A stretch of 32,402 nucleotides of DNA from positions 1-32,402 of the forward strand of contig CALWWB010000013.1 in assembly GCA_944385175.1 (NCBI GenBank). Reading direction: 5' to 3'. Within the stretch, counting starts at the first letter, position 1; every line of letters begins with the position of its first letter. A program made the translations under genes and the position numbers. The notes below the pieces were generated by a model that saw only the letters and a list, made by a program, of their open reading frames with translations, was not told the origin of the DNA and did no database searches. Shown piece by piece: positions 303 to 10,208 of the stretch. The stretch is from an uncultured Oscillospiraceae bacterium (GTDB taxonomy: Bacteria > Bacillota > Clostridia > Oscillospirales > Oscillospiraceae).

Positions 303-1214
303 ATGAGCAAAAAGCCTATTTTTTCCGGCATAGATAATCTTCCTCGTGGGCAAATCTCGGACAAAATAAGCGGCGGCTGTATAGTTCTGGAGGGCGGTGC
401 CTTTCGCGGCGTATATACCTCCGGGGTGCTTGATGCTCTTATGCAGGCGGATATAAATATGCAGTGCACCATAGGCGTGTCCGCCGGTGCCCTCAACGGC
501 ATGAACTATGTCTCGGGGCAGATAGGCCGCTCCGCCCGCATCAATCTGGAGTTTCGCCGGGATCCCCGCTATGTGGGGATACATGCCTATCGCTCCAACA
601 GGGGTATAATCGGTTTTAATTTTGTGCTTGATGAATATGATAAGGATGACCCTCTGGATCGTGACACCTTTGAGCGGCCGGACAGACGTCTGGTAGCTGT
701 GGCTACCAGCTGCCTCAGCGGCCAGCCTCTGTACTTTGAAAAAGGTTGCTGCGGTGATATCATAAAGGCCATCCAGGCTTCCGCCTCCATGCCCTATGTC
801 TCCAGGCCCGTCATTGTGGACGGCATCCCCTGCCTGGATGGGGGCTGCTCCAATGCCATCCCCTTCCAGTGGGCCCTGGATGAGGGGTATAAAAAAATAA
901 TCGTTGTACGTACCCGCCCCGCATCCTTCCGCAAGCGTGAAAGCGAACGGTCGGGCAGGCTGGCCAGGAGATTTTATAAGAGCTCCCCGGCCCTGGCCCA
1001 AGCTATCATCGACAGCGATGCCCGCTATAACCGTCAGTGCGATGAGTTGGAGCGGCTGAAAGAGGAAGGGCGCGTATACGTCATCAGTCCCAGCTCATCC
1101 ACAACTGTCAGCCGTCTGGAAAAGGACATGGAAAAGCTGGGCGAATTTTATTACCTGGGCTATTATGACGCACGAAACCATCTGGACAGCCTTCTGGCAT
1201 ATCTGGATAAATGA
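303..1214 (+). CDS. Patatin-like phospholipase family protein
   Basis: Predicted 303-residue serine lipid acyl hydrolase, cytoplasmic, with no signal peptide. It has the patatin hallmarks in order: the glycine-rich oxyanion loop GGAFRG (31-36), the nucleophile elbow GVSAG (58-62, Ser60) and the catalytic DGG (179-181, Asp179), which make the Ser-Asp dyad of the family. The length and the C-terminal helical part resemble the YjjU-like bacterial subgroup, whose physiological substrate is not settled. The ATG at 303 follows AAAGGTG at a suitable distance. It is monocistronic, with a promoter at 163-191 and a terminator at 1246-1280. The family call is firm; the substrate is unknown. Confidence 0.93.
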   Translation: MSKKPIFSGIDNLPRGQISDKISGGCIVLEGGAFRGVYTSGVLDALMQADINMQCTIGVSAGALNGMNYVSGQIGRSARINLEFRRDPRYVGIHAYRSNRGIIGFNFVLDEYDKDDPLDRDTFERPDRRLVAVATSCLSGQPLYFEKGCCGDIIKAIQASASMPYVSRPVIVDGIPCLDGGCSNAIPFQWALDEGYKKIIVVRTRPASFRKRESERSGRLARRFYKSSPALAQAIIDSDARYNRQCDELERLKEEGRVYVISPSSSTTVSRLEKDMEKLGEFYYLGYYDARNHLDSLLAYLDK

Positions 1215-1401: not shown

Positions 1402-3063
1402 TTACTTCTTCTGGACATACTTGAGGCAGTCCAGCATAACGGCAACCAGGATGATGATGCCGGAGAACACGAACTGCAGGTTAGTGTCTATGCCCAGGGT
1501 GGTCAGGGCGTAGGTCAGGGCGGTGAAGATGAACACGCCCACCACAACGCCGGATATCTTACCGATACCGCCGGTGAAAGAGATGCCGCCCACAACACAG
1601 GCTGCGATGGCGTCCATCTCCCAGCCCTGGCCGTATGCGGCGGAGCCGGAGCCCACCATGCGGATGCATTCCAGCCAGGAGCCGAAACCGTAGAGGATAC
1701 CGGCCATGACGAAAGCGCCCACGGTGACTTTGAATACGGAAATACCGGAAACGGAGGCCGCCTCCGGGTTGCCGCCCACGGCGTACAGGTTTTTACCAAA
1801 GGTTGTCTTGTTCCAGATAAACCAAACAATGACCACGGCAGCCACTGCCCACAGGATGATCGTTGGGAACTTGCCTATACGTGGGATGATCATGTTGGGT
1901 ATGGTGGTGTCAATAGCGCCAAAGGATACGCCCTTGGTGGAATAGGTCACCAAGCCGAAGATTACCAGCATATTGGCCATGGTGGATATAAAGGGGTGCA
2001 TCTTGAACCGGGCTGTAAAGAAACCGGCAATGGTAGTGAACACGGTGCAGAGCACGATACATACCACCAGGGCCAGGAACACCCGGGCCAGAACAGGCAT
2101 GGTGCTGAAGTCAAAGGCATGTCCGAACACGGAGCCGGTGTTGGGGCCATTGTGCATGACTATGGTTGCGGCGGTCATGCCCATGCCCACCATACGGCCA
2201 ATGGACAGGTCGGTGCCGGCCAGGAGGATCAGGCCGGCTACGCCAAGGGCCAGGAACATTCTGGGTGAAGCCTGCTGAAGGATATTCAGGATATTGTTAA
2301 CAGTCAGCAGCTGCACATTGGGGCCCTTGACTATTGGTGTGATGATACACAGCCCAATGAAGATAATGATAATGGCTATGTACAGACCGTTTCTCAGCAT
2401 GAAGTTGCGGCGGTTGAAGGTATACTTATAGTTCTCCCAGCGCTGGGACATTGATTCACCAAAGGTGAATCTGGACATACGCAGCAGATCAATGAGATGG
2501 AACTTATAGTCAAAGGCGGCATGCTGCCTGTCCTTTACCTCCTGCAGCTCCTTTGCCCGCTGCATTTTGGCATCGAAAAGGCGGTTCTTATGGACGTATT
2601 TCTCGTCCTTTATCTCCTGGGCATCGCTGAGCTTGGACAGATTGCTCTGGTGCTCCTGGTTCAGCTTTGCCACTGCGGCATGATAATTTTCCTCCGCCAG
2701 GGCTTTTTCTTCCTTGCAGCTGGCCACCACGGCCTGATAATAATCTGTTTTGAAATGGGCCTTCAAATAAGCTTCCGCATCGGCTATAAGTGCGGAGACC
2801 TCAGCCTTGTTTTGGTTCTCCACAGCCTTTGCCTTTTCCAGCTCTGCCCGGAGCTTATTGGTTCTCTCAGCCTTTTCCTGGGGAGTATAGATCTTATCCC
2901 TTTTCAGGCCGTCCAGAACATTCTGAATCTCCAGCACTCTGTCCGTGCCTTCGGCACGGAGCTGGTTGATTTTATCCTGGACATTGCCGACATATTCGTC
3001 GATTGGCTGGCGGAGCTGTGCTTCCTGCTCAGCCGAAAGTATTTTTGTTTTCTCTGCTACCAT
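1402..3063 (-). CDS. mglC: Galactose/methylgalactoside-type ABC permease (MglC-like) with a long N-terminal coiled-coil extension
   Basis: Membrane subunit of a sugar importer, 553 residues. Residues from about 227 onward form a canonical BPD_transp_2 permease (RbsC/MglC family). Recognisable stretches are the membrane segment near 227-245, GTDLSIGRMVGMGM, the NPEAASVSG region, and GGISFTGGIGK followed by a final hydrophobic helix. E. coli MglC is about 336 residues. The extra ~220 residues at the N terminus are charged, rich in Glu/Lys/Gln/Ala, without membrane segments, and look like long helices or coiled coil, so they should lie on the cytoplasmic side. The start at 3063 has GGGAG ten bases upstream and lies 15 bases after the mglA stop. 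It is the last gene of the operon. Galactose or glucose as substrate is inferred from the MglB homologue. Confidence 0.9.
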   Translation of the reverse strand: MVAEKTKILSAEQEAQLRQPIDEYVGNVQDKINQLRAEGTDRVLEIQNVLDGLKRDKIYTPQEKAERTNKLRAELEKAKAVENQNKAEVSALIADAEAYLKAHFKTDYYQAVVASCKEEKALAEENYHAAVAKLNQEHQSNLSKLSDAQEIKDEKYVHKNRLFDAKMQRAKELQEVKDRQHAAFDYKFHLIDLLRMSRFTFGESMSQRWENYKYTFNRRNFMLRNGLYIAIIIIFIGLCIITPIVKGPNVQLLTVNNILNILQQASPRMFLALGVAGLILLAGTDLSIGRMVGMGMTAATIVMHNGPNTGSVFGHAFDFSTMPVLARVFLALVVCIVLCTVFTTIAGFFTARFKMHPFISTMANMLVIFGLVTYSTKGVSFGAIDTTIPNMIIPRIGKFPTIILWAVAAVVIVWFIWNKTTFGKNLYAVGGNPEAASVSGISVFKVTVGAFVMAGILYGFGSWLECIRMVGSGSAAYGQGWEMDAIAACVVGGISFTGGIGKISGVVVGVFIFTALTYALTTLGIDTNLQFVFSGIIILVAVMLDCLKYVQKK

Positions 3064-3078
3064 AAGCGATTTCTCCCA

Positions 3079-4587
3079 TTACAGATATTTTGCGCTCAGG
3101 CGCAAAAGCTCTTCCTGATTGGTGTCTTTGGTGTTCACAATTCCGGAGAGGTGCCCGTTGGACATTACGCCGATTCGGTTGGTGATGCCCAGGATCTCGG
3201 GCATTTCCGAGGAGACGACGATAATGGTCTTCCCCTGTTTTGCCATACGTATAATCAGCTCATAGATCTCATATTTGGCTCCCACATCGATGCCGCGGGT
3301 GGGCTCATCCATCATGAAGATCTGGGGTTCCCGCTCCAGCCACTTTCCGAATATCACCTTCTGCTGGTTGCCGCCGGAAAGGCTGGTTATCATATCGTCG
3401 GGGCCCATGCACTTGGTATGCATGGTCTTGATTTGCTTGTTGGTGGCCTTCACCATCTTTGCATCGGACAGGGCCAGACCGGCCTTATACTGCTCCAGAT
3501 TGGCAATGGTGGTATTGAAAGTGAGGTCACATTTGAGGAACAGGCCGTTGGCCTTGCGCTCCTCGGTTATCATTGCAAAGCCATGTTCAATGGCCTCTCT
3601 GGCGCTGTTGAAGTTCATCAGCCGGTTTTTAAAATACACGCGTCCCGCTGCTCTCGTGCGCACGCCGAAGATTGTCTCCAGCAGTTCGGTGCGCCCGGCG
3701 CCCACCAGGCCGTAGAGGCCGAAGATTTCCCCTTCCTTCACATCAAAGCTGATGTCCTGGAGGTAGGGGGCGTACTTGGTGGACAGGTGCTGCACGGACA
3801 GTATGGTATCTCCCGGGGTGTTGTCCACCGGCGGGAAGCGGCTTTCCAGAGAGCGGCCCACCATGGCGGTGATCAGCTCGTTCATGTTTGTCTCCCCGGC
3901 GGGCTTGGTCATTACCAGATTACCGTCGCGAAGGACGGAGATCTCATCGCATATCTCGAAGATCTCGTCCATCTTGTGGGAGATATATATCAGGGCTATG
4001 CCCTGCTCCTTCAGCATCCTCATCATCTCAAAGAGCTTGTCCACTTCCTGAACCGTGAGGGAGGAGGTGGGCTCATCCAGAACGATGACCTGGGAATTAT
4101 AGGAAATTGCTTTGGCAATTTCACACATTTGGCGCTGGGACACGGACATGTTCCGCATGGGCTGGTTCAGATTCACCGTCATGCCCAGCTTACGAAACAG
4201 CTCCGAAGCCTTTTTCTTCATGCCGCCTTCGTCGATAACACCCACGGAGTTGATGGGATAACGGCCCAAAAACAGGTTATCGGTCACATTGCGCTCCAGG
4301 CACTGGTTCAGCTCCTGATGCACCATGGCGATTCCGTTTTCCAGGGCGTCCTTGGGTCCGGAAAAACTTATCTCCTTTCCGTTGAGATATATCTTCCCTT
4401 CATCCTTCTGATAGGTGCCGAACAGGCATTTCATCATTGTGGACTTGCCCGCGCCGTTTTCGCCCATCAGCCCCATGACCGTCCCGCGCTTCACATCCAG
4501 ATTGATGTGGTCCAGCACGCGGTTGCGGCCGAAGGACTTGCTCATACCGCGTATGGACAGAACAATATCGTCTTTCGCATCTGCCAT
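3079..4587 (-). CDS. mglA: Sugar ABC transporter ATPase, two-domain (MglA-like)
   Basis: Energises sugar import. The 502-residue protein carries two fused ABC cassettes, as in MglA/RbsA/XylG. The first has Walker A GENGAGKST (42-50), a signature at MSVSQRQ and Walker B VIVLDEP (167-173). The second has the usual degenerate Walker A (GLVGAGRTE, Lys replaced by Arg), the signature LSGGNQQK and MMDEPTRGIDVG. I chose the ATG at 4587 because GGGAG lies 8 bases before it; the GTG and ATG at 4596 and 4593 sit inside or against that ribosome site. It lies between mglB (186-base gap with hairpins) and mglC (15-base gap). Confidence 0.95.
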   Translation of the reverse strand: MADAKDDIVLSIRGMSKSFGRNRVLDHINLDVKRGTVMGLMGENGAGKSTMMKCLFGTYQKDEGKIYLNGKEISFSGPKDALENGIAMVHQELNQCLERNVTDNLFLGRYPINSVGVIDEGGMKKKASELFRKLGMTVNLNQPMRNMSVSQRQMCEIAKAISYNSQVIVLDEPTSSLTVQEVDKLFEMMRMLKEQGIALIYISHKMDEIFEICDEISVLRDGNLVMTKPAGETNMNELITAMVGRSLESRFPPVDNTPGDTILSVQHLSTKYAPYLQDISFDVKEGEIFGLYGLVGAGRTELLETIFGVRTRAAGRVYFKNRLMNFNSAREAIEHGFAMITEERKANGLFLKCDLTFNTTIANLEQYKAGLALSDAKMVKATNKQIKTMHTKCMGPDDMITSLSGGNQQKVIFGKWLEREPQIFMMDEPTRGIDVGAKYEIYELIIRMAKQGKTIIVVSSEMPEILGITNRIGVMSNGHLSGIVNTKDTNQEELLRLSAKYL

Positions 4588-4620
4588 TCTCATCACTCCC
4601 GTTTATGCAATATTGGCCGG

Positions 4621-4706
4621 CCGGGCGCGCCGGAGGGTACGCCCGGTCTGCCTTGGAAAAGTGCGACGAGGGAGAGGGTTTCTTCGGCACGGAGAAACCC
4701 CTCCCC
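4621..4706 (-). promoter_or_regulatory. Intercistronic hairpins between mglB and mglA
   Basis: Two stem-loops: CCGGGCG/CGCCCGG (4621-4646) and a longer one pairing 4670-4683 with 4693-4705 with a single bulge. Neither has a long T run on the minus strand. Such hairpins after a binding-protein gene often stabilise its message and damp expression of the membrane genes. That role is inferred. Confidence 0.5.
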
Positions 4707-4773
4707 AATGACGGAGAATATCCCTCTCCCCGTTCGCATTTGCTGTTACTTGATGTTCAAGCCTGAAACCGGA

Positions 4774-6069
4774 TCACTGGCTGAGCAGAGCGGTGTAGGA
4801 TGCAGCGTTGTCGGTCTTGACCATGTTGATGGCAAAGGCGTCGTAAGCGCTGGGATTGCTCAGACGGTTGGTGATGTTGGCCTCGGTCTGGCCGTCGCCG
4901 CCGATGTACTCCACCTTCAGGTTGAGCAGATCGTCGTAGTTCTGGAGCAGGGGCTGATAGGTAGCGCTGAGGAAGTTATCGGCAGCGTTGTAGATGTTCA
5001 GCCATACGCTCTTCTGGGGGTGAGCAGTAGCATCCAGCTGGTTGCCAACGGGAGCATAGACCTTGGTGGAATCCAGGAAGTCCTGATAGTTGTCAGCAGT
5101 GACAGCCACGTTCAGTGCGTAGTAGGAACGGGCGGCCTCGTCGTAGTAGTAGACTTCGGAGCTGAGCACGTTGCCGGCATCGTCGGCGGTGCCTATGCCG
5201 GTGTCGATATCCACACCGTCAAGGGCGTTGCGCAGCACACGCAGAGTCAGGTAAGCCTGCACGTCGGCGTGCTGGCTGATGGTTCCGCCGTAGCCCTCAG
5301 CGATGGCTGCCACGGCGTCGGCGTTGGCGTCATAACCGAAGGTGGGGACACCCTCAGCCTGGGACCAGGCGTTGAACATGGACATGCCCATGCCGTCGTT
5401 GTTGGAAGCGACGATGTCTATCTGATCGCCGAAGGAGGCGGACCAGGTGCCGATGGCATTACCGGCGGTAGCGGCATCCCAAGTGGCACCGGCGGAGTTC
5501 TTCATCTCCTGAGAGGCCAGCTCACGGACGATGTAGGTCTTGCCGTCCACTTCCAGGGTACCGTCCTGAACGGCGGTAGCGGAACCGTCGGCATTGGTGC
5601 CTATGGGATCGCTGTTGATAACGCCGTCTGCCTCAACGGCAGTGCCCAGAGCGGCACGGACGCCGCGGGTACGGGCGATGGAGTCGTTGTGGCCGATATC
5701 GCCGATGGCCAGCACGTAGCCGATGATGCCGTCGCCGTTGCGGTCGATGGTGTCAATGTTGGCCTTGATGTAGTCCAGGATCATGGTGCCCTGGAGCTCG
5801 GCGCCCTGGTTGGCGTCAAAGCCCACATAGTAGGTGTTCTCATTGAAGGTGAGAGCGTTCATATCCAGCTCGCCGGTGGAGCTGTTGGAGGGCTGGCGGT
5901 TGAACCATACCAGGGGCTTGTCCTTGTTGGCAACGGTTGCAGTCTCTGCGGCGGTGTCGGCGGCCTCGGTGCTGCCGGTATCGGCGGTCTGGGTATCTCC
6001 GCCGGAGGAGCAGGCAGCCAGGCTGAATACCAGCAGAGCTGCAAGAACAAGTGCGAGTAACTTCTTCAT
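4774..6069 (-). CDS. mglB: Circularly permuted galactose/glucose-binding lipoprotein (MglB-like)
   Basis: Extracytoplasmic sugar receptor of the Mgl importer, 431 residues. A lipoprotein signal ends in LAAC (Cys20), followed by a Thr/Ala-rich linker to about residue 50. The mature domain then starts at LVWFNRQPS, which corresponds to E. coli MglB residue ~88, not to its N terminus. The equivalent of E. coli residues ~4-84 is found at the C terminus, about 353-431 (DNFLS at 364-368, AFAINMV at 411-417). E. coli sugar contacts map as N91->N57, H152->H127, D154->D129, R158->R133, W183->W197, N211->N224, D236->D247, N256->Q266, D14->D364 and F16->F366. A calcium-loop-like DRNGDG lies at 109-114. 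ATG 6069 is 7 bases after AGGAG; ATG 6072 is the alternative. Confidence 0.93.
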   Translation of the reverse strand: MKKLLALVLAALLVFSLAACSSGGDTQTADTGSTEAADTAAETATVANKDKPLVWFNRQPSNSSTGELDMNALTFNENTYYVGFDANQGAELQGTMILDYIKANIDTIDRNGDGIIGYVLAIGDIGHNDSIARTRGVRAALGTAVEADGVINSDPIGTNADGSATAVQDGTLEVDGKTYIVRELASQEMKNSAGATWDAATAGNAIGTWSASFGDQIDIVASNNDGMGMSMFNAWSQAEGVPTFGYDANADAVAAIAEGYGGTISQHADVQAYLTLRVLRNALDGVDIDTGIGTADDAGNVLSSEVYYYDEAARSYYALNVAVTADNYQDFLDSTKVYAPVGNQLDATAHPQKSVWLNIYNAADNFLSATYQPLLQNYDDLLNLKVEYIGGDGQTEANITNRLSNPSAYDAFAINMVKTDNAASYTALLSQ

Positions 6070-6104
6070 CATGATTCTCCTTTTCAAAAATAAACTTTTG
6101 CCTC

Positions 6105-6133
6105 GGGCGGGTTTTGTGCAGAAAAGCCCGCCC
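6105..6133 (-). promoter_or_regulatory. Hairpin in the mglB leader
   Basis: Perfect GGGCGGG/CCCGCCC stem (6105-6111 and 6127-6133) with a 15-base loop, 36 bases upstream of the mglB start. It may be an mRNA-stabilising or regulatory leader hairpin. No T run follows on the minus strand. Confidence 0.45.
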
Positions 6134-6251: not shown

Positions 6252-7226
6252 TCAGCCGGAGTTAAAAGCGAACAGGACCTTCTGGCTGTCCATGGTAAAG
6301 AGGTTGTCCCTGTCTACGGTCTGGGTGGAAGTATCCACCACCCGCTCCATACCGGCATCCTGGCCCGTTAGCAGCCTGTAGGCGCTCTCCACACCCAGGT
6401 AGCCCATGGCATAAGGGTTCTGGACGATGAGGGCATCCACCGAGCCCTCCTGCAGTCCGTCCACGGTCTCCACATTGGAGTCAAAGCCCACGAGGAAAAC
6501 CGTGTCCGAGAGGCCCAGCTCCTCTACAGCCTGAGCGGCACCCACGCTGGTGGGCTCGTTAAAGGCCAGCAGCACGTTTATCTCCGGGAACAGATTCAGC
6601 ATTTCCACGGTATCGTCCCGGGCGGGTTCCGCATCCGCCAGGGTATTTATGACGGAAACTATCTCCGCCCTTCCGCTTTCCTCCAGCACATCCAGAGCGC
6701 CCTGCTGGCGTTGCTGGCCGTTGGCGCTGCTGATGTCATAATTCACCACGCCCACCTTCAGCTTCCCCTCCACTCTGTCCAGGGCGGCCTGGGCCGCCAT
6801 TTCTCCGGCGGCATAGTTGTCGGTGCCTATGTAGGTGCACACCATCTGGGAGGCAACGCCGCTGTCTATGGCTACGATCTTCACTCCGGCCTTGGCGGCC
6901 TGGTCGATGGCGGAGGCGTTGTTCTCATAGTCGATGGCGGAGAAAACTATGGCCTCTGCCCCATCCTCCACTGCCTGGGCGACCATGAGGTTTTGCGTCT
7001 CATAGTCCTCTTCTGTCTCCGGGCCGATGATGCTCAGTTTCATGTTATACTCCGCAGCGGCAGCCTCCGCCCCGGCAAAGACCGACAGCCAGAATTCCGT
7101 CTGGGTGGACTTGGCCACCAGGGCCACGGTGTGCTGCCGGGAGTATTCCCCGCTTGAGCTGCATCCCCCCAGCAGCAGTGTGAACAGCAGGGCCGCCAGC
7201 AGGGCGGAAACTCTATTTATCCTCAT
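6252..7226 (-). CDS. Sugar-binding lipoprotein of a three-component sensing system
   Basis: 324-residue Peripla_BP_4-type binding protein with a lipobox LLGGC (Cys22). The domain order is the normal one, beginning VALVAKSTQTEFWLSV and continuing through AIDSGV, YIGTDNY and VGFDSN. It is therefore not permuted, unlike its downstream neighbour. The ATG at 7226 lies inside the end of the kinase gene (14-base overlap) behind AGGAGGG, so translation is coupled to the kinase. In XylFII-LytS-YesN-like systems a binding protein presents the sugar to the kinase; the gene order supports that role here. It could instead feed the Mgl permease. Its ligand is unknown. Confidence 0.88.
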   Translation of the reverse strand: MRINRVSALLAALLFTLLLGGCSSSGEYSRQHTVALVAKSTQTEFWLSVFAGAEAAAAEYNMKLSIIGPETEEDYETQNLMVAQAVEDGAEAIVFSAIDYENNASAIDQAAKAGVKIVAIDSGVASQMVCTYIGTDNYAAGEMAAQAALDRVEGKLKVGVVNYDISSANGQQRQQGALDVLEESGRAEIVSVINTLADAEPARDDTVEMLNLFPEINVLLAFNEPTSVGAAQAVEELGLSDTVFLVGFDSNVETVDGLQEGSVDALIVQNPYAMGYLGVESAYRLLTGQDAGMERVVDTSTQTVDRDNLFTMDSQKVLFAFNSG

Positions 7227-8931
7227 ATTCACCCTCCTGTATCTTGGGCATGCGTATCTCCACGCAGGTGCCCACGTCCGGCTCGCTGGTGATATGCAGG
7301 CCGTACTGCTTGCCGAAGTATATTTGCAGCCTGTCATTTACGTTTCTGATGCCTATGCCGGTGCGATCCTTGGGCCCCTGTTCCAGGATGGATTCGATAA
7401 GCTCCCGGCTCATTCCCACCCCGTTGTCCCTGACGGTAAATACTATGTCCTCCCCGTCCTGTCTCACCTGAACGGTTATGCGCCCCTCCTCCACCAGCAG
7501 ATCCAGGCCGTGGTTTATGGCGTTTTCTATAATGGGCTGGAGGGTGATCTTGTTGCAGTAGTAATCCAGGCAGGCCGGGTCCACGTCAAATTCATAGGTA
7601 AACTGGTTTTTATATCGGTATTTCTGTATTTGCAGATAGCTCTCCGCGTGCTGTATCTCCTTGGATATGGGGATGAGCTCATGGCCCTTGCTGATACTGA
7701 TGCGGAAAAGCCGCGCCAGGGCGTGGACCATTTTCACCGCGTCGGCGTTGCGGCCCTGCTCGCACATCCAGGCGATGGAATCCAGGGTGTTATACAGGAA
7801 GTGGGGATTAATCTGGGCCTGGAGGGCTTTGAGCTCGGTCTTGCGCAGATTGATTTCCTCTTCCCTCACGGTGCTCATGAGCTGCTGTATCCGCAGCACC
7901 ATATGCCGGAAGGAGCCGGAGAGTTCCTGCACCTCCCGTGTGCCTCCCACGGGGCGGTACGTGAAGTGGTCGGCATCCCTCTCAAAGCTCCCCATGGCCT
8001 CGGCCAGAGCCCGCAGGGGCTGGGCCAGCAGCCGGGACAGCAGCCAGCTGGTGAGCAGGGCCGCCAGCAGCACCGCCGCCCCAAGCAGTATTGTCAGGCG
8101 TATCATATCGCTGACGTTGCGGTTTACCAGCTCGTCCACATAGCTGACGCCCACTACCCGCCAGTCGCTGTCCGGAACGCTGGTGACGGCGTATATAACC
8201 GTGTCGTCGGCATAGGAGCCGTCTTCCAGGGCGGCCAGGGCGGCGCTGTTTTCGGTTTTCAGCCCGGCATACAGCAGCTGCTGCTGGGGATGATAGACAA
8301 TACCGCCCTCCCCGTCCATGAGGAAGCAGTAGCCCCTCTGGCCTATACTCACATTGTTTATATAGCTTGATATGCTGGAAAAGCTGAGATCCAGGGAGAC
8401 CCAGGCCATACTGTTGCCCTGTTCCAGGGGGGCGGTCATCGTTACCACCCAGGGATAGTAGCCCTCAAATATACTCTCCACGTGGGGTGCGGTCATGTAG
8501 GAACTGCCGGTTGAGCGGGCCCTTTCCAGGTCAAAGGAGAGGTTACGGTAAATATTCTCCCGTGGCTCCCTGTCCAGGCACCAGCAGTCCATAAGCTCCC
8601 CGGAATGGGAGTAGCCGGTGACGGCCACCACATCCGGCCGGAATATGAGAAAGGCCGTGAGCATACGGTCCCGGTCTTCGTCGCTCTCCAGCAGAGACCA
8701 CTCCACCATAGACATGGCCTGGTTCATACCCTGGAGGTAGCTGCCCACGGTATTGGACACCTGGGACACCGCCTGGGCGGTGCTGGTGCGGGCACTCTGG
8801 ACCATGGCGCTGCGGTAGCGGTTCAGGAACAGAATGATACAGCAGCACAGTATCACCGCCACCACCCCCACCACCATGGATACAAGTATGGTGGTGATGC
8901 GCAGCCCTGTGCGGGAAACTCCGTCCTTCAT
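7213..8931 (-). CDS. Sensor histidine kinase, YesM/LytS-like
   Basis: Membrane sensor kinase of 572 residues. Membrane segments at about 10-36 and 278-300 enclose an extracellular Cache-like sensor region. A HAMP linker follows at ~300-355. The His_kinase domain (PF06580 type) has LQAQINPHFLYNTL with phospho-acceptor His377. The ATPase domain has N box QPIIENAINHG (Asn470), DNGVGM (502-507) and GIGIRNVNDRL. Its ATG at 8931 overlaps the regulator's TGA (ATGA), so the pair is translationally coupled. It should phosphorylate the response regulator in reply to a sugar, probably through the downstream binding protein. Confidence 0.93.
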   Translation of the reverse strand: MKDGVSRTGLRITTILVSMVVGVVAVILCCCIILFLNRYRSAMVQSARTSTAQAVSQVSNTVGSYLQGMNQAMSMVEWSLLESDEDRDRMLTAFLIFRPDVVAVTGYSHSGELMDCWCLDREPRENIYRNLSFDLERARSTGSSYMTAPHVESIFEGYYPWVVTMTAPLEQGNSMAWVSLDLSFSSISSYINNVSIGQRGYCFLMDGEGGIVYHPQQQLLYAGLKTENSAALAALEDGSYADDTVIYAVTSVPDSDWRVVGVSYVDELVNRNVSDMIRLTILLGAAVLLAALLTSWLLSRLLAQPLRALAEAMGSFERDADHFTYRPVGGTREVQELSGSFRHMVLRIQQLMSTVREEEINLRKTELKALQAQINPHFLYNTLDSIAWMCEQGRNADAVKMVHALARLFRISISKGHELIPISKEIQHAESYLQIQKYRYKNQFTYEFDVDPACLDYYCNKITLQPIIENAINHGLDLLVEEGRITVQVRQDGEDIVFTVRDNGVGMSRELIESILEQGPKDRTGIGIRNVNDRLQIYFGKQYGLHITSEPDVGTCVEIRMPKIQEGEYEDK

Positions 8932-10208
8932 ACCGTCTCACCCGCCCTTTCCCGCTCCAGCCGCCGGCGCATGGCGTTGGGGGATTCGCCGCAGTATTTC
9001 TTGAAGCAGTAGCTGAAATAGTGCTGGTCTATGTAGCCGCAGCGCTGGGCGATCTCGTTGATTTTCAGCTGTGAAGATTCCAGCAGCTGGCGGGCAGCCT
9101 CCATGCGCTTGCGTATGAGTATGTTGATAAAAGTTTCCCCGGTGCATTTTTTCAGGCAGGATGACAGGTGGTTCGGGCTCACTGCCAGCATGCCGCTGAG
9201 AGACACCAGGGACAGGTCCGGGTCCATATAGTGGCTGTCCAGCGTCTCCAGGGCCCGCTTGCACAGCCGGTTCCCACCGCTGACGGCAGGGGCCAGGTCG
9301 TTTATGAACTGGGCGCCGCTCTCGCTTTTATCCCCTTGGCGCAGGGCGACCATGGCCTCCCGGTAGGCGCCGTGGAGAGCGGTGAGGCTGTCCACAGCCC
9401 GGCTTATGCCGATGCGGCAGCATCTGCCCAGCACCCTGTCGGCCATCTGGGGTATCTCGTCGGCCAGGATGTGCAGGTATTCTTCAAAGTCGGAGGGATT
9501 TCCCAGCAGCACGGAGATCACCTTTCCGGAGGCGAAGAAATGGGCGGCCCGGAAATATTTCGCGGCCAGCCTGTCCACGGAGGACACGAAGCTGGGTGCG
9601 GTACAGTTGCTCCCATCCTCCCTGAACAGGTTGGACACCATGACCACATAGCCGGGGCTGTCCCCCATATCCCGCAGCAAGCCGCATCTGTAGGCGTAAT
9701 CCCTGGCCTGTTCCTCCTCCGCCTCTCCGTAACCGTCCAGCACCAGTGACATGAGCATGGCGGTTTTCAGCTCCATGCCCCCATGGCGTGGGAAACTCTG
9801 GCGGAACATGGCGTATTGGGAATCTATTTTTTCCCGGATGATGTGCAGCTCCCTGCACAGGCCCTCCATGGTCAGGGGCTTGAGCATATAGCTGATGATA
9901 TTGTACTGGATGGCCTGCTTGGCATATTCAAAATCGTCATGGCCGCTGAGGAAGGCGATGTTTGTGGCAGGGCGCACCTCACGCACCTGGCGGGCCAGTT
10001 CTATTCCTGAGATAAAGGGCATACGGATATCGGTCAGGAGCAGGTCAGGTTCCAGCTTCTCCACCAGCTGCAAGGCATCCAGCCCGTTGCTGGCGTTGCC
10101 CACCAGCCTGAAACCGCATTCCTCCCAAGGGATCATGGTACATACCGCTTCCCTCAGCTCGTCCTCATCGTCTGCCACGATAACGGTGTATAATGTCTTG
10201 TCCGCCAT
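8928..10208 (-). CDS. AraC-type response regulator, YesN-like
   Basis: 426-residue DNA-binding regulator. The receiver domain has acidic residues D13/D14, phospho-acceptor Asp60 in LLLTDIRMP, and Lys110 in YMLKPL. A helical middle region follows, and the C-terminal AraC helix-turn-helix pair lies at about 330-422, with GYIDQHYFSYCFKKYCGESP the typical AraC ending. The ATG at 10208 has AGGAGG 6 bases upstream. It is first in the operon and is likely to activate the downstream mgl genes; its targets are inferred only from position. Confidence 0.94.
   Translation of the reverse strand: MADKTLYTVIVADDEDELREAVCTMIPWEECGFRLVGNASNGLDALQLVEKLEPDLLLTDIRMPFISGIELARQVREVRPATNIAFLSGHDDFEYAKQAIQYNIISYMLKPLTMEGLCRELHIIREKIDSQYAMFRQSFPRHGGMELKTAMLMSLVLDGYGEAEEEQARDYAYRCGLLRDMGDSPGYVVMVSNLFREDGSNCTAPSFVSSVDRLAAKYFRAAHFFASGKVISVLLGNPSDFEEYLHILADEIPQMADRVLGRCCRIGISRAVDSLTALHGAYREAMVALRQGDKSESGAQFINDLAPAVSGGNRLCKRALETLDSHYMDPDLSLVSLSGMLAVSPNHLSSCLKKCTGETFINILIRKRMEAARQLLESSQLKINEIAQRCGYIDQHYFSYCFKKYCGESPNAMRRRLERERAGETV

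Follow-up and report, generated by a model that had tools for sequence, protein, structure and literature searches.

The window, i.e., the whole stretch of 32,402 nucleotides analysed here, carries on its minus strand a sugar-transport operon of the mglB-mglA-mglC type. Genes for a response regulator, a sensor histidine kinase and a second sugar-binding protein lie, in this order, upstream of mglB, which is followed by mglA and mglC (Table 1). The preliminary description of the gene at 4774-6069 gave no strand; reading of its open frame places it on the minus strand, with the start ATG at 6069 and the stop codon at 4776-4774. A second in-frame ATG is found at 6072, one codon upstream of this start, and an 11-pair G+C-rich inverted repeat (6105-6133) immediately precedes the mglB ribosome-binding site. 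A plus-strand open frame of 1187 codons (2497-6060), antisense to mglA and mglB, most likely reflects nothing more than codon composition.

Table 1. Genes and protein segments of the mgl locus.
Feature	Position in the window	Strand	Size or match
mglC, permease	1402..3063	minus	553 aa; BPD_transp_2 at residues 257-541
N-terminal extension of MglC	2424..3063	minus	213 aa as used in the genome searches; about 215 aa
mglA, sugar ABC transporter ATPase	3079..4596	minus	NF008215, E = 2.4e-198, 660 bits, under the 828-bit cut-off
mglB, permuted MglB-type glucose/galactose-binding putative lipoprotein	4774..6069	minus	431 aa; PF18610 and PF13407; match to 5JX2
C-terminal, moved N-lobe segment of MglB (E. 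coli MglB strands 1-3)	4804..5016	minus	PF18610, 140.5 bits
Second, non-permuted type I sugar-binding protein	6252..7337	minus	PF13407, E = 2.8e-53, profile 1-257 of 258
Sensor histidine kinase	7213..8931	minus	Pfam: dCache, HAMP, His_kinase, HATPase_c
Response regulator with AraC-type helix-turn-helix domain	8928..10208	minus	Pfam

The mglB product starts with a signal peptide that closes in the lipobox LAAC, whose cysteine (C20) is kept in at least 90% of 38 aligned MglB sequences, namely the window protein and 37 relatives picked from the best 80 of 464 loci (see below). Pfam divides the protein into the same two blocks that had been recognized in the preliminary description: positions 94-256 of the 258 of Peripla_BP_4 (PF13407) match residues 77-285, and the entire Peripla_BP_7 profile (PF18610, 71 positions) matches residues 352-422 (E = 6.3e-40). 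The NCBIfam profile of canonical MglB, NF011924, reaches 84.7 bits in two stretches, far below its cut-off of 420 bits. This cut-off is strict, since all 299 genomes of our phylum sample miss it as well. For annotation purposes, PF18610 marks the permuted class. A search for Peripla_BP_7 in the open-licence literature gave no paper.

The arrangement of the two blocks had been read as a circular permutation of MglB, with N-lobe strands 1-3 transferred to the C-terminus and the cut placed between N-lobe helix 3 and strand 4. Comparison with solved structures bears out both the permutation and the position of the cut. In a phmmer search of the PDB, the best match is Tp0684/MglB-2 of Treponema pallidum (5JX2, E = 3e-92), and the alignment is colinear, pairing residues 47-429 of the 431 of the window protein with residues 18-385 of 387. 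Coverage is 89% for the complete precursor and nearly complete for the domain past signal peptide and linker. The 5JX2 chain ends with the three strands that come first in the N-lobe of E. coli MglB (Brautigam et al., 2016; PMC4990184). On the other hand, canonical glucose/galactose-binding proteins, the best of which is 8FXU (E = 6e-21), match either in two pieces or in a single piece without the C-terminal block.

An AlphaFold model built from the 38-sequence alignment (mean pLDDT 75.0, pTM 0.73; pLDDT below 50 at residues 19-42, 60-64, and 419-422) predicts strands at 353-359, 384-390, and 411-415 of the moved segment. When this model is used as a Foldseek query, TpMglB-2 is the best match (E = 1.1e-35). 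Its four chains (5JX2, two chains of 6BGC, and 6BGD) rank first, with TM scores of 0.80-0.85 by target length and 43-44% identity, while ranks 5-16 are occupied by E. coli, Salmonella and related glucose/galactose-binding entries, aligned in sequence order with TM scores of 0.55-0.59. Because the match to the solved permuted 5JX2 is colinear over nearly the whole mature protein and the predicted fold agrees with it, we consider the permutation settled.

Taken by itself and at the level of sequence, the pairwise similarity of the moved block to the N-terminus of E. coli MglB is weak. The alignment with a doubled E. coli MglB, proposed in the preliminary description, did improve the local score, from 221 to 241, but 300 shuffles yielded gains of up to 21, so that the increase of 20 was not used as proof. 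Against E. coli MglB 1-100, the last 85 residues of the window protein score 45; of 1000 shuffles, 4 score at least as high, with a maximum of 56. When 503 targets, 500 of them shuffles, are searched with a profile built on the C-terminal block, E. coli MglB 1-82 comes out on top, although at an E-value of only 0.055, and the full linear E. coli MglB scores about level with the best shuffles. There is also no sign of a linear N-terminal match, as the first 100 mature residues score 19 against E. coli MglB 1-80. This weak similarity, together with the assignment of the C-terminal part to a Pfam family of its own, would fit a canonical MglB whose first strands were lost and to whose C-terminus an unrelated domain was added. 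We regard such an origin as very improbable: in the solved colinear relative the corresponding residues are N-lobe strands 1-3 (PMC4990184), so that by analogy residues 353-431 would complete the N-lobe instead of forming a separate domain, and two sugar contacts, D364 and F366, lie inside the segment and are invariant in all 38 aligned sequences. As for the route to the permutation, an incidental look at the MglB frames of the best 80 of 464 loci revealed none that resembled an intermediate of tandem duplication.

The suggestion that this permutation may not have been described does not hold. The structure of T. pallidum MglB-2, its permutation and its binding of D-glucose were reported in 2016 (Brautigam et al., 2016; PMC4990184). 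These authors propose the name "Type Ic / Cluster Bc" for a subclass of permuted binding proteins, which they place in treponemes and in bacteria that are for the most part Gram-positive, with many gut commensals among them. They recognize members of the family by a colinear match with aligned N-termini and a coverage above 90%. The window MglB shows the colinear match, as well as C-terminal N-lobe strands 1-3, assigned by homology and prediction, and the conserved glucose contacts. Thus, it is one more member of the already known TpMglB-2 family, with which it shares the permuted order, the cut, the predicted lipoprotein character and a glutamine at the position of E. coli N256. As another member of a published class, the permutation is of little importance alone.

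The sugar contacts were compared using the list in Table 2 of PMC4990184 and a pairwise alignment of E. coli MglB with the window protein. In agreement with the preliminary description, nine of the ten contacts are identical (E. coli/window: D14/D364, F16/F366, N91/N57, H152/H127, D154/D129, R158/R133, W183/W197, N211/N224, and D236/D247) and the tenth is an asparagine-to-glutamine change (N256/Q266). The site is divided between the two blocks, as D364 and F366 belong to the moved segment and the other contacts to the first block. All ten columns are invariant in the 38 aligned sequences. The same N256-to-Q change is found in TpMglB-2, for which a possible link of the permuted topology to membrane tethering has also been discussed (PMC4990184). 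On the other hand, TpMglB-2 has N311 at the position of E. coli D14, where the window protein keeps D364; therefore, the sugar affinities of the two proteins may differ. By ITC, T. pallidum MglB-2 binds D-glucose with a KD of 1.1 μM and D-galactose with a KD of 33 μM (PMC4990184). By analogy, the ligand of the window MglB is most likely D-glucose, with D-galactose bound more weakly.

The window MglB is almost certainly the substrate-binding lipoprotein of a sugar-importing ABC transporter encoded by mglB-mglA-mglC, within the T. pallidum MglB-2 family. Its chain would begin at N-lobe strand 4 and then pass through the C-lobe; a linker at about residues 335-352 would make a fourth crossing back to the N-lobe, where the chain would end with strands 1-3. 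Both chain ends would sit at the place taken in E. coli MglB by the turn that connects helix 3 to strand 4. D-glucose and, more weakly, D-galactose would be bound between the lobes, and MglB would close and pass the sugar to MglC/MglA. A lipid on C20 would tether the protein to the membrane, the linker (about residues 21-46) being probably flexible. E. coli MglB, which is soluble in the periplasm, has the same fold elements, all but one of the same contacts and the same type of operon, whereas the window MglB has a rotated order, the fourth crossing and a putative lipid anchor.

A survey of genome contigs returned 503 pattern-matching stretches, 464 of which encode a relative; the best 80 of these 464 loci were analysed. 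Their titles include Agathobaculum, Flavonifractor, Gemmiger, Lachnoclostridium, Hungatella, Dorea, Erysipelotrichaceae and others. The window genome is assembled in 146 contigs, which could raise the suspicion of an assembly artefact or a chimaeric gene. This hardly credible reading is already refuted by other assemblies: the same order occurs in all 80 relatives, with a best-segment identity of 76-92% and matches extending to query residue 429-431, and some of them come from cultured isolates, Gemmiger formicilis An812 for example. PF18610 was detected in 6 of 60 relatives, in 2 of 299 of the phylum sample and in 5 of 393 of the class sample, the window genome being counted each time, and in none of 14 named control genomes. 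Permuted relatives are widespread but patchy in Clostridia. The window genome (assembly 90.6% complete) contains no second permuted copy, the other 13 matches covering only query residues 1-90, mostly signal peptide, and the only hits of the canonical MglB model in this genome are two fragments of the same permuted gene.

Seven loci with a permuted mglB were recovered from whole genomes, two of which appear to repeat named loci. Six of them have mglA and an extended mglC (see below). The seventh, from genome G644 (L134:9639-10901), encodes a divergent MglB of 57% identity that stands alone, with neither mglA nor mglC in the 16 kb of sequence analysed, and adjoins genes resembling, by eye, HD-type and GGDEF-type proteins. 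This orphan, along with the chemotaxis role discussed for TpMglB-2 (PMC4990184), could indicate that the main role of the permuted MglB is that of a sensor or chemoreceptor protein, rather than one in transport. We find this very unlikely for the window protein, considering that, both in the window and at 75 of the best 80 of 464 loci, mglA follows mglB on the same strand, and that in the other five the contig ends at most 420 bases from mglB. A patatin-like gene is present both in the window (303-1214) and at the orphan locus. Its linkage to mglBAC was rejected: besides the orphan locus, it was found only at L024, i.e., in 1 of the best 80 of 464 loci, 58 of which have at least 1.5 kb past mglC.

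To return to the transporter operon, a tree was built of 37 MglA-type ATPases, with RbsA and AraG as outgroup. Twenty-three belong to permuted operons (the window, 16 from the best 80 of 464 loci and 6 from whole genomes) and 12 are canonical, including E. coli MglA. The permuted ATPases all fall on one side of a single branch with a support of 100/100 and a length of 1.46. The canonical ones do not form a single group, and the branch linking E. coli MglA to the permuted ATPases is weak (87/69). This topology is consistent with a single origin of the permuted operons, which we consider possible from these sequences.

The permease also differs from its E. coli counterpart. MglC has 553 residues in the window and 336 in E. 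coli, and the BPD_transp_2 core is common to both, whereas the N-terminal extension is found only in the window protein. The canonical MglC profile NF007014 fits the C-terminal part (profile 10-336 on residues 219-553, 269 bits) and misses its cut-off of 386 bits. Among the best 80 of 464 loci, the extension is present in 70. A full-length mglC with extension (548-563 aa) occurs in 64 loci, and in 5 the extension is present and the 3′ end of mglC is lost at the contig end. The 10 loci without mglC are those where the available sequence stops within mglA or at most 420 bases past the last gene. At the Eubacterium plexicaudatum locus (L075:12014-12702), the extension is divided over two reading frames. 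None of 11 canonical operons (11 of the 15 loci L097-L111), with an MglC of 333-360 aa, has a match to the extension at E 1e-8. With the window genome counted in both, the extension occurs in 2 of 299 genomes of the phylum sample and in 4 of 393 of the class sample. Every one of these also has PF18610, and the one remaining genome with PF18610 in the class sample, G644, has no extension.

In the MglC model, extension residues 11-195 are predicted to be mostly helical (block pLDDT 82-93); the overall model has a mean pLDDT of 58.3 and a pTM of 0.37, with a poor membrane part. Since no signal peptide was seen by eye, the extension is probably cytoplasmic. Its sole match among solved structures, to GrpE, has an E-value of 0.26 and was not accepted as a relation. 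We found no description of the extension in the open-licence literature, nor in a search of PMC4990184 for MglC. The permuted MglB and the extended MglC may mark a transporter lineage of their own, perhaps with one origin, where the shift of the tether and the extension would be coupled adaptations, for instance in ATPase docking or regulation; we put this forward tentatively, as a doubtful proposal. If the coupling is real, it would become testable why these transporters depart from E. coli Mgl in two places at once.

As for the genes upstream, the second binding protein is the probable sensor partner of the kinase and, with the kinase and the AraC-type regulator, it probably controls the mgl operon. 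All three genes lie upstream of mglB in 34 of the best 80 of 464 loci. When these 80 are restricted to the 64 loci whose mglB frame starts beyond base 5500, the count is 32, with other arrangements elsewhere. Further along the window, the minus strand between 13993 and 22296 groups an ABC ATPase and a PBP-like protein with a set of molybdenum-cofactor genes encoding MoCF_biosynth, MoaC, a MoaA-like radical SAM protein and two MoeA-type proteins, one of which is fused to a PBP-like domain.
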